A DNA stretch of 64,000 nucleotides, taken from positions 1-64,000 of the forward strand of contig JAJXTV010000018.1 in NCBI GenBank assembly GCA_021783515.1. Direction: 5' to 3'. The DNA is from Nitrospirota bacterium (GTDB lineage Bacteria > Nitrospirota > Thermodesulfovibrionia > Thermodesulfovibrionales > UBA6898). This document shows positions 1-50,469 of the stretch, in pieces (positions within the stretch are counted from its first letter, which is position 1; every line of letters begins with the position of its first letter). A program made the position numbers and the translations under genes. Below the pieces are notes generated by a model. It had not been told where the DNA came from. It worked only from the letters and a program-made list of their open reading frames with translations, and did not search any database.

Positions 1-100
<100 letters not shown>

Positions 101-2703: not shown

Positions 2704-4518
2704 TCAGCCGCGCCTTCCGGCAGCTGCACCCGGATCGCCATCACGATACGCCCGGATCTCCCGGATAAACTCTTCCCCATAGCGCTGAAGCTTTGCGTCT
2801 CCTATTCCGCTGATCCTTCTCATCTCCGGCAGAGTCCCGGGAAAATGTCTGCACATCTCGTGGAGGGTCTTGTCCGAGAATATGATATAAGGAGGGACAT
2901 GATGTTCTCCGGCCATCTTCTTCCTGAGGCTGCGAAGCCTTTCGAAGAGAGCTTCATCATACCGGCCGGAAGAGCTCCCCGCTATCGGTTTTGTCTTGGA
3001 TTTCGCCTCCAGCCTCTTCAACGCCTTCGCTTCTTCCTTGCCGGAGAGCACGTCCAGCCCCCTTTGGGTCAGCTTCAGGACAGGGTAAGGATCGCCCTCC
3101 TGTCTGATCATCTCCTGGGCCAGAAGCTCACCCAGGAGGAACCTCCAGTGTTGTTTGTCTTTCTGTCTTCCCGCACCGTAGGTCTTTATCTCATTATGCC
3201 TGAGCTCGCGCACGCGTTTTGTGTCGGCCCCCATCACGATATCGACGACATGGCCTGTGCCGAACCTCTGGCCTGTTTCCGAAACAGCCGCCATGATTAT
3301 CCGCGCGTCCACGGTTACGTCGATCTGCTCGACGGAGCCGGTGCATATGTCGCAGCCGCCGCAATTATCTTGTGGATAGTCCTCCCCGAAAAATCCGAGG
3401 AGCTGTCTCCTTCTGCAGACGTTGTGCGACGCATACTCGACGACCTGATTGAGCTTGCGGAGCGCAATGGAGCGTTCGTTCTCGTCCTCCATCCCGTCGA
3501 TGAAATAGCGGATCTTCGGTATGTCTCCCCTGCCGAAAAGAAGCAGGCAATGGGCCGGCTCTCCGTCACGCCCGGCCCGGCCGGTTTCCTGATAATAGCT
3601 TTCGATGTTTTTGGGGAGGTCCGCATGGAGGACGAACCGCACATTCGATTTGTCTATGCCCATGCCGAAGGCGACCGTCGCCACGATCACCTGGGACTCG
3701 TCCCTGTTAAACGCCTCCTGATTGCTGTTCCGCTCCTCCGAAGACAGCCCTGCGTGGTAGGGGAGAGCGCTGATACCGCGAGAGACAAGGAGACCGGCAG
3801 TCTCCATCACCGAATCGCGGGTCGTCCGATAGATAATGCCCGCTTCGCCCTGATGGGCCGCGAGGAACCCGAGTATCTGGGAGGCAACGCCTGTTTTCGG
3901 CTTCACCTCATAGAAGAGGTTCGCCCGGTTAAATGAGGCCCGGACGACAAATGGGGTCCTGAGGCCGATTCTGCGGATAATATCTTCCTGGACCTTCTTG
4001 GTTGCCGTTGCGGTAAAGGCCGCGGCAGGCACATCCGGGAATTCTCTCGACAGGAGGGAGAGGCTGAGATAGTCCGGACGAAAGTCGTGGCCCCACTCGG
4101 ATATACAGTGGGCCTCGTCTATGGTAAAAAGCGAGACAGGGAAGGACTTCAGGACCGCGAGAAAATGCGGCATCGCAAACCGCTCGGGCGCAATATAGAG
4201 GAGCTTTATCCTGTTTTGCTTCAGAGAGCGGGACACTCCGGAAATTTCCTCTGCGGTCATCGAGCTGTTGATGAATGCTGCCGGTATCCCGTTTTCGCGC
4301 GCCGCATCGACCTGGTCTTTCATCAGGGAGATGAGAGGGCTGATTATCACCGCCGTGCCCTCCTTCATCATTGCGGGAAGCTGGTAGCAGAGCGATTTCC
4401 CTCCGCCGGTAGGCATCACCGCAAAGACGTCCCTGCCGGCAAGAATGCTCCTTATGATTTCTTCCTGATTCGGCCGGAAGGCCTGAAAACCGAAAACCGT
4501 CCTGAGTGTGTTAAGCAT
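2704..4518 (-). CDS. recQ: ATP-dependent DNA helicase RecQ
   Basis: A 604-residue RecQ helicase with the complete bacterial domain set. The helicase core has MPTGGGKS (Walker A, residues 35-42), the DEAH box (134-137) and motif VI (QETGRAGRDG). The RecQ C-terminal zinc site follows around 373-397 (C...CGGCDIC), then a winged helix, and an HRDC domain ends the protein. It unwinds 3'-5' in recombinational repair. The ATG has AGGGG eight bases upstream. A copy of the dispersed 200-bp repeat lies immediately upstream, so the promoter must lie in or beyond that repeat. Confidence 0.97.
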   Translation of the reverse strand: MLNTLRTVFGFQAFRPNQEEIIRSILAGRDVFAVMPTGGGKSLCYQLPAMMKEGTAVIISPLISLMKDQVDAARENGIPAAFINSSMTAEEISGVSRSLKQNRIKLLYIAPERFAMPHFLAVLKSFPVSLFTIDEAHCISEWGHDFRPDYLSLSLLSREFPDVPAAAFTATATKKVQEDIIRRIGLRTPFVVRASFNRANLFYEVKPKTGVASQILGFLAAHQGEAGIIYRTTRDSVMETAGLLVSRGISALPYHAGLSSEERNSNQEAFNRDESQVIVATVAFGMGIDKSNVRFVLHADLPKNIESYYQETGRAGRDGEPAHCLLLFGRGDIPKIRYFIDGMEDENERSIALRKLNQVVEYASHNVCRRRQLLGFFGEDYPQDNCGGCDICTGSVEQIDVTVDARIIMAAVSETGQRFGTGHVVDIVMGADTKRVRELRHNEIKTYGAGRQKDKQHWRFLLGELLAQEMIRQEGDPYPVLKLTQRGLDVLSGKEEAKALKRLEAKSKTKPIAGSSSGRYDEALFERLRSLRKKMAGEHHVPPYIIFSDKTLHEMCRHFPGTLPEMRRISGIGDAKLQRYGEEFIREIRAYRDGDPGAAAGRRG

Positions 4519-4532
4519 GACTGACCCCTAAT

Positions 4533-4733
4533 GTTGCAACCCGGCGAAAAGAGCGTCCCTCAAATCCTTTTAATGCGATAAGATTTGACGTAGCATGGCG
4601 TCGAGAGTACAGGAGATCACTGAACGTTATGTCCCGGGTAGGCGCTTCGAAGGTGGCTTCCGATGCCGTAAGGAATCGCGACAAAAGGCTTTTCGGGCCA
4701 CTCTCCCCGCCTCTGTGGTGATATTTGTGCAAC
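4533..4733 (+). repeat. Dispersed ~200-bp repeat, copy A
   Basis: This copy starts with GTTGCA and ends with TGCAAC. It contains AGAGCGTCCCTCAAATCC, then GATTTGA forming a hairpin with CAAATC, the block AGCATGGCGTCG, GTGGCTTCCGATGC and finally AAAAGGCTTTTCGGGCC before a C-rich right side. The same blocks in the same order occur at 14471, 41220 and (reversed) 50241. It fills most of the 342-base gap between recQ and trpC. A short open frame from its internal ATG (4594) is not preserved across copies, so coding is doubtful. Confidence 0.85.
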
Positions 4734-4825
4734 TGCATGACTGAACGATCCCCCATTCGCTTTCTTGATGCGGTTATCTTAGCACAAAAGCCGAAGCGGT
4801 TCTCCGGGAAGGCACGCCCCGCATC

Positions 4826-14457: not shown

Positions 14458-14470
14458 TTATCCTATTGTA

Positions 14471-14671
14471 GTTGCATGCCGCCGGGAAGAGCGTCTGCCA
14501 AATCCCTTCTGATGCGATGGGATTTGAGTAGCATGGCGTCAAGAAAAGAGGGCTCTGACGAACAGTAAAGTCCGGGCAAAGCCCTCAGGTGTGGCTTCCG
14601 ATGCGCTAAGGAATTGATAGGAAAGGATTTTCAGGCCACTCTCCCCGGCTGTGTAGCGCTGTTTCTGCGAC
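14471..14671 (+). repeat. Dispersed ~200-bp repeat, copy B
   Basis: Starts GTTGCA and ends TGCGAC, one base from a perfect terminal inverted repeat. It holds the best hairpin of the family, CAAATCCC...GGGATTTG with a 12-base loop, then AGCATGGCGTCAAG, GTGGCTTCCGATGCGCTAAGGAATT and a CAGGCCACTCTCCCC right side. Its internal ATG frame is closed by an early stop. It lies in the 598-base gap between serS and the small gene at 14900. Confidence 0.85.
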
Positions 14672-14756
14672 CGGAGAGGTTAGCTTCACTTCGCGGCTAT
14701 GCCGGTGATGGTGAAAAATGCGGGAAAGCAGAAAAGAAATATTTATCTGCGCCACC

Positions 14757-14899: not shown

Positions 14900-15139
14900 A
14901 TGAGATTCGCGAAATTCTGGAAGGTGGAGATTTTCGAGCTTTCGCTGACCGAAAGGATGTTCTACCGGGACGCGATCAGGACCCTTCAGGCATGGAAGCC
15001 CCTGCGGCAGGAGTTCGCCGAACTTGAGATGATCAGGAGGATGCTCGAAGAGGAGATACATCTGCCGTCGGTGAATTCTCCTGAAGAAGGACTAACCCTC
15101 CGGATAAGCAATTCAACTCTCCGAGAGAGGGCTGAGTAG
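14900..15139 (+). CDS. Small hypothetical protein
   Basis: A 79-residue charged protein (MRFAKFWKVEIFELSLTERM at the start, then an Arg/Glu-rich helix). GAGGGCAG precedes the ATG at a usable distance and an 80-base region with nested inverted repeats lies upstream. Its last codon touches the start of truncated repeat copy E. No homologous family is recognised; it could be a small regulatory protein or a chance frame. Confidence 0.45.
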   Translation: MRFAKFWKVEIFELSLTERMFYRDAIRTLQAWKPLRQEFAELEMIRRMLEEEIHLPSVNSPEEGLTLRISNSTLRERAE

Positions 15140-15250
15140 CCCGAACAGCCTTTCGTAGCAATTCCGCAACCCTTAATCCCTGCTCCCCATGCCCTGATCA
15201 AATCTCATCGCATCAGTAAGGATTTGAGGGATGCCCTGCCCCCTTTCGCC
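15139..15250 (-). repeat. Dispersed repeat, truncated copy E
   Basis: Read on the minus strand it has CATCCCTCAAATCCTTACTGATGCGATGAGATTTGA and a matching GAATTGCTACGAAAGGCTGTTCGGGC at its other end. The roughly 70-base central hairpin block present in the full copies is missing. It fills the gap between the small gene at 14900 and the trpS 3' end. Confidence 0.75.
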
Positions 15251-41219: not shown

Positions 41220-41395
41220 TAACTGAGCCGACTCCTCACATCCTTTCTGATGCAAGAGGATTCGACAGAGCATGGCGGCGGGAATACAGGACTTCACGAG
41301 GAATTATGGCTCCGTCAGGGTCTTTGGGAGTGCCTTCCGATGCGCTAAGAACTCGCTACGAAAGGCTTTTCGGGCCGCCCCAGTCAATAGCCGGG
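41220..41395 (+). repeat. Dispersed ~200-bp repeat, copy C
   Basis: Carries the same ordered blocks as the other copies (ACATCCTTTCTGATGCAAGAGG, AGAGCATGGCGGCG, GGACTTCACGA, GCCTTCCGATGCGCTAAG, CGAAAGGCTTTTCGGGCC). The terminal GTTGCA/TGCAAC hexamers are not intact and the C-rich right side is shortened, so it is a worn copy. It occupies the gap between the Tyr-rich lipoprotein and the CNB-domain gene. Confidence 0.78.
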
Positions 41396-45162: not shown

Positions 45163-45855
45163 ATGTTCAAGAGCGCAATAAGAAAATGGGGGGAGATCAG
45201 GTATGGGCGGATATCATCAGCGCAATACCTTATTGTAAGCCTCGTTGTGATAATCGGTCTCGCTCTCCTATCTATGGCGACGGCGCCCGGAGAACGGGAA
45301 GATGCTCCGTATCGGGTTTCGCATAATCGGGCCGGCGCGGGCGTGAATGAGGCGACTAAGCCGCTTATCCTGCAATGGATGAAAGATCGCTCAGATATGC
45401 CTGAGCAGGTCCTTGAGAGGATCTACAGTGCGGCCATGGACAACGTCAACGCCGACCTGGTCCTTGCCATCTGTCTGGTAGAGTCCAACTTCAACCCTCA
45501 TGTGGAAAGCGAAAAAGGCGCGATGGGACTGATGGGTATAATGCCGACCGTATGGCTGGAAGAACTGAAGGCGCACGGGATTGTGAGAGAGCGGGACGAT
45601 CTCTTGACGATATCGAGTAATATAAAATCCGGCGGATACGTGCTTGGGAGATATCTGGCAAGGACGAACAATCTCAGGGAAGCCCTCAGCCTTTATGCAG
45701 GCGGAGACCCTGCATACGCGGTCAGGGTCTTGCGGATGCTCGGGGAGATCACGCAGGTCAGGCGTTCGGAGAATGAACCCCGCCTTGAGGCGCTCAGGAC
45801 AGAGGCGCAGTTTCGCCCCGCATTACATTTAAGTGAGCGATGGGGTCAGACTTGA
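45163..45855 (+). CDS. Lytic transglycosylase-like protein (SLT domain)
   Basis: A 230-residue protein with an N-terminal membrane anchor (YLIVSLVVIIGLALLSMA) and an SLT lysozyme-like domain (about 85-210). The catalytic Glu lies in ICLVESNFNPHVESEKGAMGLMGIMP, followed by NIKSGGYVLGRYL and LSLYAGGDPAY. It would cut peptidoglycan in the periplasm. AGGAGG precedes ATG 45163. Its last five codons and stop (WGQT-stop) are supplied by the inverted end of the transposon inserted at 45840, so the original C terminus is altered. Confidence 0.85.
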   Translation: MFKSAIRKWGEIRYGRISSAQYLIVSLVVIIGLALLSMATAPGEREDAPYRVSHNRAGAGVNEATKPLILQWMKDRSDMPEQVLERIYSAAMDNVNADLVLAICLVESNFNPHVESEKGAMGLMGIMPTVWLEELKAHGIVRERDDLLTISSNIKSGGYVLGRYLARTNNLREALSLYAGGDPAYAVRVLRMLGEITQVRRSENEPRLEALRTEAQFRPALHLSERWGQT

Positions 45856-46847
45856 CTATTGACATCTGGCTTTCGTTCTTTCAATTTTGCAATCACCTTC
45901 GCCGCGTCTTTCTTCATTTCCTTCTGTTTTATATGGCGAGTGATCAGGGCCGGGTCTTTTCGCATATATGCTGCGATCTCTCTGCCCTTATAACCGAAGT
46001 CGTGAGCCACAAGGCTGAACATCTTTCGCCCTCTCGATATGTTTCCGTCTTTGCTTTTCTCTCTCATCTGAGCCGGCGTTATTCCAAATATCTCCTCGAT
46101 CACCCCGGAAATTGCCGGAAGAGAGTATTCTCGTTCCCTCCTGCCCGGCTCGATCCCGGCCTCACATTTGTCTATTACCCTATCTGCAAATGTCTCATCC
46201 CCAAGTATTCTCTTGTCGATAGTGTTATAGATATCCTCCTTCTTTACCACTATTCCGTTGCCGACAAATGCCCCATAGAGCCTTCGAGCCGCCTTTTTGT
46301 CAGCGGAAAACAGTCGCAGAACCAGGTCCTCGTCCACGATACTCTTGTCCGTCGACCTGAGGTAGTACCTATGGCTGCTCCAGCGATATTCTTGCGGGGT
46401 CTTTACCAGATGCGCCCTCACGGGATTCAGATGTATATATTTGACAAGAGAAAGCAAATAACTGTCGCGGTCGCATAGTATTGCCTTGTATCTGCCCTGA
46501 AAGAGATGCCCCACCGTCCTGTATCTTCTGTTGAACCGGCCGGTGTAGCTCTGGTTGATGCCTTGGAGTATCTTCGACAGAGGCGTCTCGCCCGTCTCTA
46601 CAAGAAGGTGGACGTGGTTGCCCATGAGAACATATGCATAGAGCCGATATTTATACAGGTCCTTATATCTGGCAAGTACCTCAAGATATTTCCCGTAGTC
46701 TTCATCGTCCCGGAAAATCTTCTGCCGCTGGTTGCCACGGGTTATAACGTGGTAGAAGGCGCCTTCAAATTCTATTCTCGGCTTACGGGCCATGCCATCA
46801 GTCTATTGGTACTAACCGCAAATGTCAATAGTCAAGTCTGACCCCAT
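45840..46847. mobile_element. Single-gene transposon with 26-bp inverted ends
   Basis: A 1008-base unit bounded by perfect 26-base inverted repeats: ATGGGGTCAGACTTGACTAT... at 45840-45865 and its reverse complement at 46822-46847. It contains one intact transposase gene of the IS200/REP-associated (Y1) type. No target-site duplication is evident. It inserted at the 3' end of the transglycosylase gene. Confidence 0.85.
45846..46793 (-). CDS. REP-associated tyrosine transposase (Y1 type)
   Basis: A 315-residue transposase of the IS200-like RAYT group. The N-terminal HUH nuclease shows FYHVITRGNQRQKIF, the metal-binding HVHLLVE (HUH) near residue 60 and a tyrosine in INQSYTGRFNRRY. LFQGRYKAILCDRD and YIHLNPVRA are typical group motifs, and a C-terminal DnaA-like helix-turn-helix region (about 220-300) probably binds DNA. 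It is full length with no frameshift. Its stop codon lies inside the left inverted repeat. Confidence 0.93.
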   Translation of the reverse strand: MARKPRIEFEGAFYHVITRGNQRQKIFRDDEDYGKYLEVLARYKDLYKYRLYAYVLMGNHVHLLVETGETPLSKILQGINQSYTGRFNRRYRTVGHLFQGRYKAILCDRDSYLLSLVKYIHLNPVRAHLVKTPQEYRWSSHRYYLRSTDKSIVDEDLVLRLFSADKKAARRLYGAFVGNGIVVKKEDIYNTIDKRILGDETFADRVIDKCEAGIEPGRREREYSLPAISGVIEEIFGITPAQMREKSKDGNISRGRKMFSLVAHDFGYKGREIAAYMRKDPALITRHIKQKEMKKDAAKVIAKLKERKPDVNSQV

Positions 46848-46872: not shown

Positions 46873-46934
46873 GTGGTTATTCCGGCGAAATCTGCCACCC
46901 ATTCCGGAACAAACCTGCCAGGGATGGCAGGGGA
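46873..46934 (+). repeat. Left array of ~22-bp repeats (IS21-end-like)
   Basis: Two tandem units, ATTCCGGCGAAATCTGCCACCC and ATTCCGGAACAAACCTGCCA, repeat at a 22-base period. The right-hand side of the hicAB pair holds an inverted version. Multiple short repeats at each end are characteristic of IS21-family elements. No istA or istB gene is present. Confidence 0.55.
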
Positions 46935-46976
46935 AAAGATGTTGCTATAGTACTGCTAATGATACTATAATAAATT

Positions 46977-47238
46977 GTGGCGACGATCGCGGAGATAGTT
47001 CTGCAGATGAGGAACAATGCACGCGATGTGCGGTTCGATGATTTATGCCGGGTTTGCGATCATTATTTCGGCCCTGCCCGGCAGAAGGGAAGCAGCCACA
47101 GGATATACAAGACCCCGTGGCCCGGAGACCCCCGAGTGGAATATTCAGAGCGACAGGGGAAAGGCGAAGGCGTATCAAGTAAAACAGGTGCTCTGGGCAA
47201 TAGATCTTTTGGAGGTTGATCATGACTCTAAAAAATGA
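46977..47238 (+). pseudogene. hicA: HicA-type toxin gene, frameshifted
   Basis: The first frame encodes the HicA start through RFDDLCRVCDHYFG, RQKGSSHRIYKTPWPGDPRV; the next frame over continues IQSDRGKAKAYQVKQVLWAIDLLE to a stop at 47238. Removing one G from the GG at 47138-47139 would restore VNIQSD, the family sequence. So the gene carries a single-base insertion, either natural inactivation or an assembly error. HicA is an mRNA-cleaving toxin with an active His, here in SSHRIY. GTG start. Confidence 0.82.
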
Positions 47239-47563
47239 CCATTATACTTATCGCGTCACCTGGTCCGAGGAAGATAAGGAGTATGTCGGACTCTGCGCGG
47301 AATTCCCCAGCCTGAGCTGGCTTGCTAAAACGCACGAGTCCGCGCTAAGAGGTATACGGTCGCTGGTCGCGGAGGTCATAGAAGACCTCCGGAAAAACAA
47401 CGAGGAGATCCCGGAGCCGTTTGCAAATCGGCACTATAGCGGCAAATTCGTTGTACGCGTCACTGCTGAGACCCATAGAGAACTTGCTATCCGGTCGGCC
47501 GAAGCCGGGGTGAGCCTGAACCGCCTTGTGGCTGACAAACTAAGCCGCCGGGCGAGCCGCTGA
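47222..47563 (+). CDS. hicB: HicB-family antitoxin
   Basis: A 113-residue antitoxin. The N-terminal partial RNase H-like fold has YRVTWSEEDKEYVGLCAEFPSLSWLA, followed by a C-terminal ribbon-helix-helix (KFVVRVTAETHRELAIRSAEAGVSLNRLVADKL) that binds the operator. GGAGG lies six bases before ATG 47222. The start overlaps the frameshifted hicA by 17 bases, the usual hicAB arrangement. It appears intact although its toxin does not. Confidence 0.92.
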   Translation: MTLKNDHYTYRVTWSEEDKEYVGLCAEFPSLSWLAKTHESALRGIRSLVAEVIEDLRKNNEEIPEPFANRHYSGKFVVRVTAETHRELAIRSAEAGVSLNRLVADKLSRRASR

Positions 47564-47580
47564 ATTGCGCCTCCGCTTTG

Positions 47581-47668
47581 TCCCCTGCCAAGGGTGGCAG
47601 GTTTGCACTGGAACAGGTGGCAGGAATAAAATGCAACAGCCGGCAGGAATCAATCGGAATGGGTGGCA
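47581..47668 (-). repeat. Right array of ~22-bp repeats (IS21-end-like)
   Basis: On the minus strand four units at about 22-23-base spacing begin CTGCCACCCATTCC, CCTGCCGGC, CCTGCCACCTGTTCC and CCTGCCACCCTTGGCAGGGG. The outer unit repeats CTGCCACCCATTCCG of the left array in opposite orientation. Together the arrays bracket hicAB. Confidence 0.55.
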
Positions 47669-47775
47669 GAGATGGTCCGGAAAATGCAAGTGGGCTTGGA
47701 TACCCTTCCATGCATTGGCTTGCTGGCACGACAGATCTGATAAATGCCATCGGTTTTGAGGTAAGAATCCTACAC

Positions 47776-50187
<2,412 letters not shown>

Positions 50188-50240
50188 TTACGCCTTCCCT
50201 AATATGTCTTGTTTTTTAACTTTCCACTTTTAACTCTCTA

Positions 50241-50440
50241 GTTGCATAAAGAGCGCCTCAACGGCGGGGTGGGCGGCCCGAAAAGCCTTTCGCAGCGATC
50301 CCTCAGCGCATCGGGAGCCACGCCCGAGGCTCCGAGCGGGACATCACTTTTCGTGAAGTCCTCTACACCCGACGCCATGCTCAGTCAGATCCCATCGCAT
50401 CAGAAAGATTTGAGGAACGCTCTCCCTGCCTGGCTGCAAC
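50241..50440 (-). repeat. Dispersed ~200-bp repeat, copy D
   Basis: The best-preserved copy, in reverse orientation, bounded by perfect GTTGCA and TGCAAC hexamers at 50241 and 50435. It contains all the shared blocks and two good hairpins: GGACATCAC/GTGAAGTCC (around 50340-50362) and CGAAAAGCCTTTCG (about 50279-50292). It fills nearly all the 291-base gap between dnaN and gyrB. On the minus strand its internal ATG opens a frame of about 50 codons. Confidence 0.87.
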
Positions 50441-50469
50441 GATAGGGTTAACTTCCAGCTTTATTTTCG

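Follow-up and report, generated by a model that had tools for sequence, protein, structure and literature searches.

The window analysed here is a 64,000-nucleotide stretch from a 3.16-Mb, 48-contig draft genome of the Nitrospirota. It contains five copies of a ~200-bp repeat: three near full length, one core-only and one internally deleted. Every one of them lies in a gap between genes, as a preliminary description of this DNA had said. Pairwise identity is 72-79% over 80-130 nt, and E-values reach 1e-58 (for a copy outside the window in the same genome), which is far beyond chance. The copies and the parts of copy 1 are as follows; P1, P2 and P3 are the stems of the folded core described below.

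4525-4740, plus strand: copy 1, near full length, between recQ (minus) and trpC (plus); ends CCCCTAATGTTGCAAC and GTGCAACTGCATGA
4543-4711, plus strand: core of copy 1, P1 to P1'
4543-4559, plus strand: left arm of P1 in copy 1, pairing with 4695-4711; variable sequence with compensatory change; coordinates from the covariance-model match
4562-4580, plus strand: left arms of P2 and P3 in copy 1 (AAATCCTTTTAATGCGAT); the partner on the right side is ATCGCGACAAAAGGCTTTT
14462-14678, plus strand: copy 2, near full length, upstream of serS (minus); core at 14481-14649
15126-15244, minus strand: internally deleted copy adjoining a class-I W/Y tRNA synthetase gene; model E-value 4e-13
41222-41384, plus strand: core-only copy, no recognisable ends, between a small ORF (plus) and a cyclic-nucleotide-binding protein gene (minus); E-value 2e-23
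50234-50447, minus strand: copy 4, full length, between dnaN and gyrB; core at 50263-50430

The preliminary description had counted four near-full copies. This holds for those at 4533, 14471 and 50241, but the one at 41220 has lost its ends and is thus a core rather than a near-full copy. The reversed deletion copy it placed at 15139 was recovered at 15126-15244; the P1, P2 and P3 strands are kept there and most of the apical domain is gone. Its list of neighbours stands for recQ/trpC, serS, the W/Y tRNA synthetase gene and dnaN/gyrB, to which the cyclic-nucleotide-binding protein gene beside the 41220 copy has to be added.

Other features of the window are a 16S rRNA gene within which it opens (1-100, minus strand) and a separate mobile element at 45840-46847, where a 29-bp, 97% inverted repeat (ATGGGGTCAGACTTGACTATTGACATCTG) surrounds the gene for a 315-aa Y1 (IS200-like) transposase. 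The stretch between this element and gyrB (46891-47670) has at least three occurrences of the imperfect inverted repeats CTGCCACCCATTCCGGAACAAACCTGCC.

Mobility and the probable transposase partner

A covariance model detected ~50 loci of the repeat in the whole genome (E <= 1.4e-6). The elements are ~215 bp long, encode no protein and are too short to hold a transposase, and indels between copies are frequent. They are bounded by imperfect inverted repeats of ~15 bp, with CCCTAWCGTTGCATA on the left and a partner bearing GTTGCAT on the right. Allowing up to 3 mismatches, the end sequence was found at 32 places in the genome, compared with 4 for the reversed pattern. Small, internally deleted remnants have kept both ends and lost the core.

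Exact 4-bp target duplications flank 17 of 35 curated copies, where shuffling gives an expectation of 3.0. They are of the TTNA type, and TTAA, TTTA, TTGA, ATAA, TAAA and TCAA were seen. The count was made on curated ends, and an automatic scan was discarded for its false right ends. Copy 4 has an exact duplication (TTAA at 50230-50233 and 50448-50451), and the flanks of copy 2, TTTA-like and GTTA, are a decayed one. On either side of copy 1 stands CTGA (4521-4524 and 4741-4744), inside a 10-bp direct repeat GCATGACTGA at 4515-4524 and 4735-4744; the copy was entered as a mismatch, which makes the count conservative. This direct repeat overlaps the recQ start codon and exceeds the usual 4-bp duplication.

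The site of copy 4 is unoccupied in relatives. The dnaN-gyrB gap measures 291 nt here and 30-157 nt in 24 other genomes of the family, all of which lack the copy (144, 87 and 59 nt in those of the same genus), and copy 4 is thus a lineage-specific insertion. Judged by these sequence features, the repeats are mobile.

At the same ends, two relatives carry a transposase of 460-480 aa (G048, with both ends seen, and G103, with one). Both proteins belong to the IS1380 family (NF033539, E-values 3e-66 and 9e-68, above the curated cut-off), and we thus class the repeats as IS1380-type MITEs, that is, non-autonomous transposons. Ends of this type, which we call type A, also occur in G096, and in G260, related at class level, an IS1380 copy has CCTTAnnGTGGCATAAA-like ends with TTAA next to each of them. 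The draft genome of the window itself yielded no IS1380 transposase, nor did most other genomes rich in copies. The usual marks of a MITE, namely terminal inverted repeats, target duplication and a short length with no protein of its own, are therefore seen in this genome, and the remaining one, ends shared with an autonomous transposon, in its relatives. Matching ends and duplications suggest that an IS1380 transposase acted on the ends in the window; transposases of this TTAA-type family would move the MITEs in trans, using the ~15-bp imperfect ends and producing TTNA duplications. The non-autonomous element offered as one option in the preliminary description is borne out by the inverted repeats, the 4-bp duplications, the unoccupied site and the matching transposase.

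The sister species G002 contains another MITE, ~235 bp long, which has the same ends and no core and has spread to dozens of places. The core is thus not needed for movement. At L121:1498-1736 and other loci in G002, the core-less MITE holds a REP-like GTCATTCCCGCAGTCTTTAGGCGGGAATCCA hairpin, and many of its copies or ends lie at contig breaks.

The folded core and its spread

Between the ends lies a core of ~170 nt, a three-part long-range stem conserved across the Thermodesulfovibrionales. From the outside inwards it consists of P1, a conserved 2x2 internal loop, P2 (AAAGCCUUU:AAAGGCUUU) and P3 (GCGAU:AUCGC), stacked on one another and closed by a lineage-specific apical domain. The pairing seen in relatives is between CAAAGCCTTT..AATGCGAT on the left strand and ATCGC..AAAGGCTTTT on the right, and it served as the basis of the covariance model. 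RNAalifold recovered almost no structure from our first alignment of copies from the window's own genome, and the stability of a single folded copy is not unusual (z -1.4). The long-range stem emerged once the alignment included relatives, and could afterwards be seen in within-genome alignments as well. Conserved hairpins had been proposed for the repeat. A conserved fold does exist, but the CAAATCC/GGATTTG hairpin is not part of what is deeply conserved, which is P2 plus P3.

The sequence of P1 differs from copy to copy while its pairing is kept. In a MAFFT alignment of 168 copies, P1 is paired at 81.5% compared with 54.9% after shuffling, and nearly every position shows 4-6 standard pair types; pairing of P2 and P3 is likewise above shuffles. 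The strongest case comes from within single genomes (G013, G021, G114, G049, G085 and G093), where the P1 arms vary between copies and pair within each copy. In G013, the arms are only 52% alike between copies, and 10.4 of 12 positions pair within a copy compared with 7.4 across copies. Controlled by shuffles and by cross-copy pairing, this strong compensatory change in the stem sequences shows that the core has a conserved fold. Further copies and compensatory changes, on which the preliminary description had staked its reading, are thus both present (~50 loci; a paired P1), and the repeated RNA that it named as a second option gains from the conserved fold, although an RNA function itself is a matter of inference.

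Two observations concern individual arms. At L029:1523-1688 the central hairpin, TTCGACAGGCTCAC..GTCACCCTGAGCTTGTCG, is similar to a common type of REP repeat, which gives the impression of an exchanged apical arm. The sequences GTTAGGC/GCCTAAC in some P1 arms suggested an integron attC site; upon inspection, we rejected this because the two boxes are in inverted order and are absent from other copies.

Full-length matches to the core were found with the covariance model in 35 of the 149 genomes of the order, belonging to seven families. In a sample of the phylum, 27 of 296 genomes have the core; most are Thermodesulfovibrionales, and the others are three genomes from another family of the same class and one from elsewhere in the phylum. 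A narrow pattern scan of named genomes gave no match, and a looser one gave 19 stretches, all from Nitrospirota except for one bacterium. This distribution bears on the idea that the core is a single-copy housekeeping RNA gene, duplicated by chance and with no tie to transposition. Its deep conservation and the several genomes with a single match would suit such a gene, but most genomes of the order have no match, others have many, and the sites at which copies lie are lineage-specific and show transposon ends and target duplications. We regard this explanation as highly improbable.

The same core was found within at least three different sets of ends:

Type A ends (GTTGCAT): this genome, many G085 copies, a G131 copy and a few G013 copies
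Second type of ends (ATAATCCGTAATCA): G114, G049 and G093
Third type of ends (CTGCCGATAG): G033

A transposase for the second type was looked for and not found; the large ORFs beside four solo ends of this kind are housekeeping genes. From their CC-TAA starts and TTGA-like flanks, our guess is that the second and third types may also be driven by IS1380. In G145, the second kind of end (ATAATCCGTAANCA) occurs at 105 sites, many of which lie where contigs stop; this points to a highly active transposon absent from that assembly. Most copies in G013 and G021 have no clear ends, and the core persists. Because the core persists after its ends have decayed and turns up with different ones, it appears to be kept for a purpose other than recognition by a single transposase.

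Strand, orientation and function

The simplest account of the repeats would be a plain IS1380 MITE whose palindromic interior is a DNA feature only, either a hairpin or cruciform aiding transposition or a palindrome corrected by template switching, with no function as RNA. Ends, target duplications and transposase all fit this account, correction at the DNA level would keep drifting arms paired, and folding energies favour neither strand overall. It does not explain, however, why unpaired conserved bases differ between the arms (at the junction of P2 and P3, AAU in one and U in the other; CUAAGG in just one of them), which is unexpected in a symmetric DNA site. Nor does it account for the persistence of the core in G013 and G021 after the loss of most ends, for the spread of the core-less MITE in G002, or for the unequal tolerance of A.C and G.U mismatches described next. 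We thus consider it unlikely.

In the orientation of the preliminary description (plus strand for copy 1), the mismatches in P1 comprise 46 A.C and 14 G.U; an A.C on this strand is a G.U on the other. The terminal repeats of this genome show the reversed ratio (10 A.C, 19 G.U; Fisher p 2e-4). The A.C excess in P1 holds in every gene context, which together with the reversed ratio makes a simple mutation bias unlikely; by genome it is seen in 8 of 10, which alone is not significant. In addition, 142 of the 168 copies have UC/UC as the 2x2 loop joining P1 to P2, which on the opposite strand is a tandem G.A. Tandem G.A is a well-known stable RNA motif. From the mismatch asymmetry and this loop we infer, at odds of about two to one, that the functional RNA is the strand opposite to the orientation described.

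The orientation of the copies relative to genes is also uneven. Between co-directional genes, the described strand is sense to the genes in 55 copies and opposite in 13 (p 2.7e-7; gene contexts from a home-made gene caller), and the sense orientation is the commoner one in every genome with at least 3 informative copies. Copy 4, for example, is co-directional in this orientation with both dnaN and gyrB. The core-less MITE of G002 shows a ratio of 6:5, a small sample that does not differ significantly from 55:13 (p 0.11).

One reading of this bias is that the core acts in cis, in host mRNAs and in the described orientation, as an element for processing or stabilising them at the 3' end or between genes. 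Correia and ERIC repeats have been reported to affect mRNA via RNase III or RNase E (PMC10969869, PMC2229807). In favour of this reading, copies between co-directional genes lie a median of 39 nt after one and 73 nt before the next, and 55 of 68 are sense to both. The mismatch asymmetry, however, favours the other strand, and many copies lie between divergent (30) or convergent (27) genes. A cis-acting element thus seems to us a doubtful explanation, somewhat more so than a DNA palindrome.

We favour instead, with a probability of roughly 60%, an unnamed structured RNA that has been spread repeatedly as cargo of IS1380-mobilised MITEs, its function as RNA being read from sequence comparison. 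The ~170-nt core would be a conserved structured module, most likely RNA, whose fold works, to go by the mismatch asymmetry, when transcribed from the strand opposite to that described. The RNA may be a stable or processed transcript, a point on which we are less sure than on the strand. Insertions that place this RNA inside a host mRNA would mostly have been lost, leaving the bias of 55:13. In a fuller version, which we put forward tentatively, the core may be a new class of structured RNA, made from the opposite strand and with a function of its own, whether for the cell or for the element, kept across the Thermodesulfovibrionia by repeated transfer between the MITEs of different transposons.

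Comparison with known systems

A known Rfam family, the counter-possibility raised in the preliminary description, was not found: none of 4227 families matched at gathering or credible permissive scores. The core does resemble Rfam families in having a conserved secondary structure backed by covariation. IMG/VR likewise gave no match, and the open-access literature searched contained no account of an IS1380 MITE bearing such a core, or of repeats like these in this lineage.

IS1380 insertion sequences share with the repeats ends that start with CCYTA plus GTTGCATAAA and short TTNA duplications. A Paracoccus member of the family has 16-bp ends and a 5-bp duplication (PMC3281130), and piggyBac, for which IS1380 served as the outgroup, has CCCTT-type ends and TTAA sites (PMC10813416). 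Unlike the repeats, these insertion sequences carry a transposase, and the ~170-nt core was not seen in them; the non-coding ends of the IS1380 copies L130 and L378 are too short to hold it.

Close parallels are the folded MITEs Correia/NEMIS, ERIC/IRU, BOX, RUP and SPRITE. In the passages cited, these are 100-220 bp long, mostly intergenic and present in dozens of copies, with folded transcripts predicted and mobilisation in trans presumed (PMC3049150, PMC2229807, PMC10969869). The repeats resemble them, as there described, in size, intergenic setting, copy number and folded interior, and belong with Correia, ERIC and BOX to the same kind of element, MITEs whose interior is folded. In these accounts, however, each family is confined to one species or group of genera and has one kind of end, whereas the present core spans a bacterial order, occurs with at least three kinds of ends and has undergone compensatory change inside individual genomes. 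The usual view of MITEs is of parasites defined by their ends, with an interior that is free to vary; here, the interior is conserved across an order and between different ends. If it is an RNA, it would be a multi-copy RNA class that has no name yet, from a lineage known almost exclusively through metagenomes, and would offer a test of how mobile DNA spreads and preserves functional RNA. The covariance model makes the core directly searchable. Compared with the known folded MITEs, what is new is how deeply the core is conserved, that it has exchanged ends and that compensation occurs within genomes.
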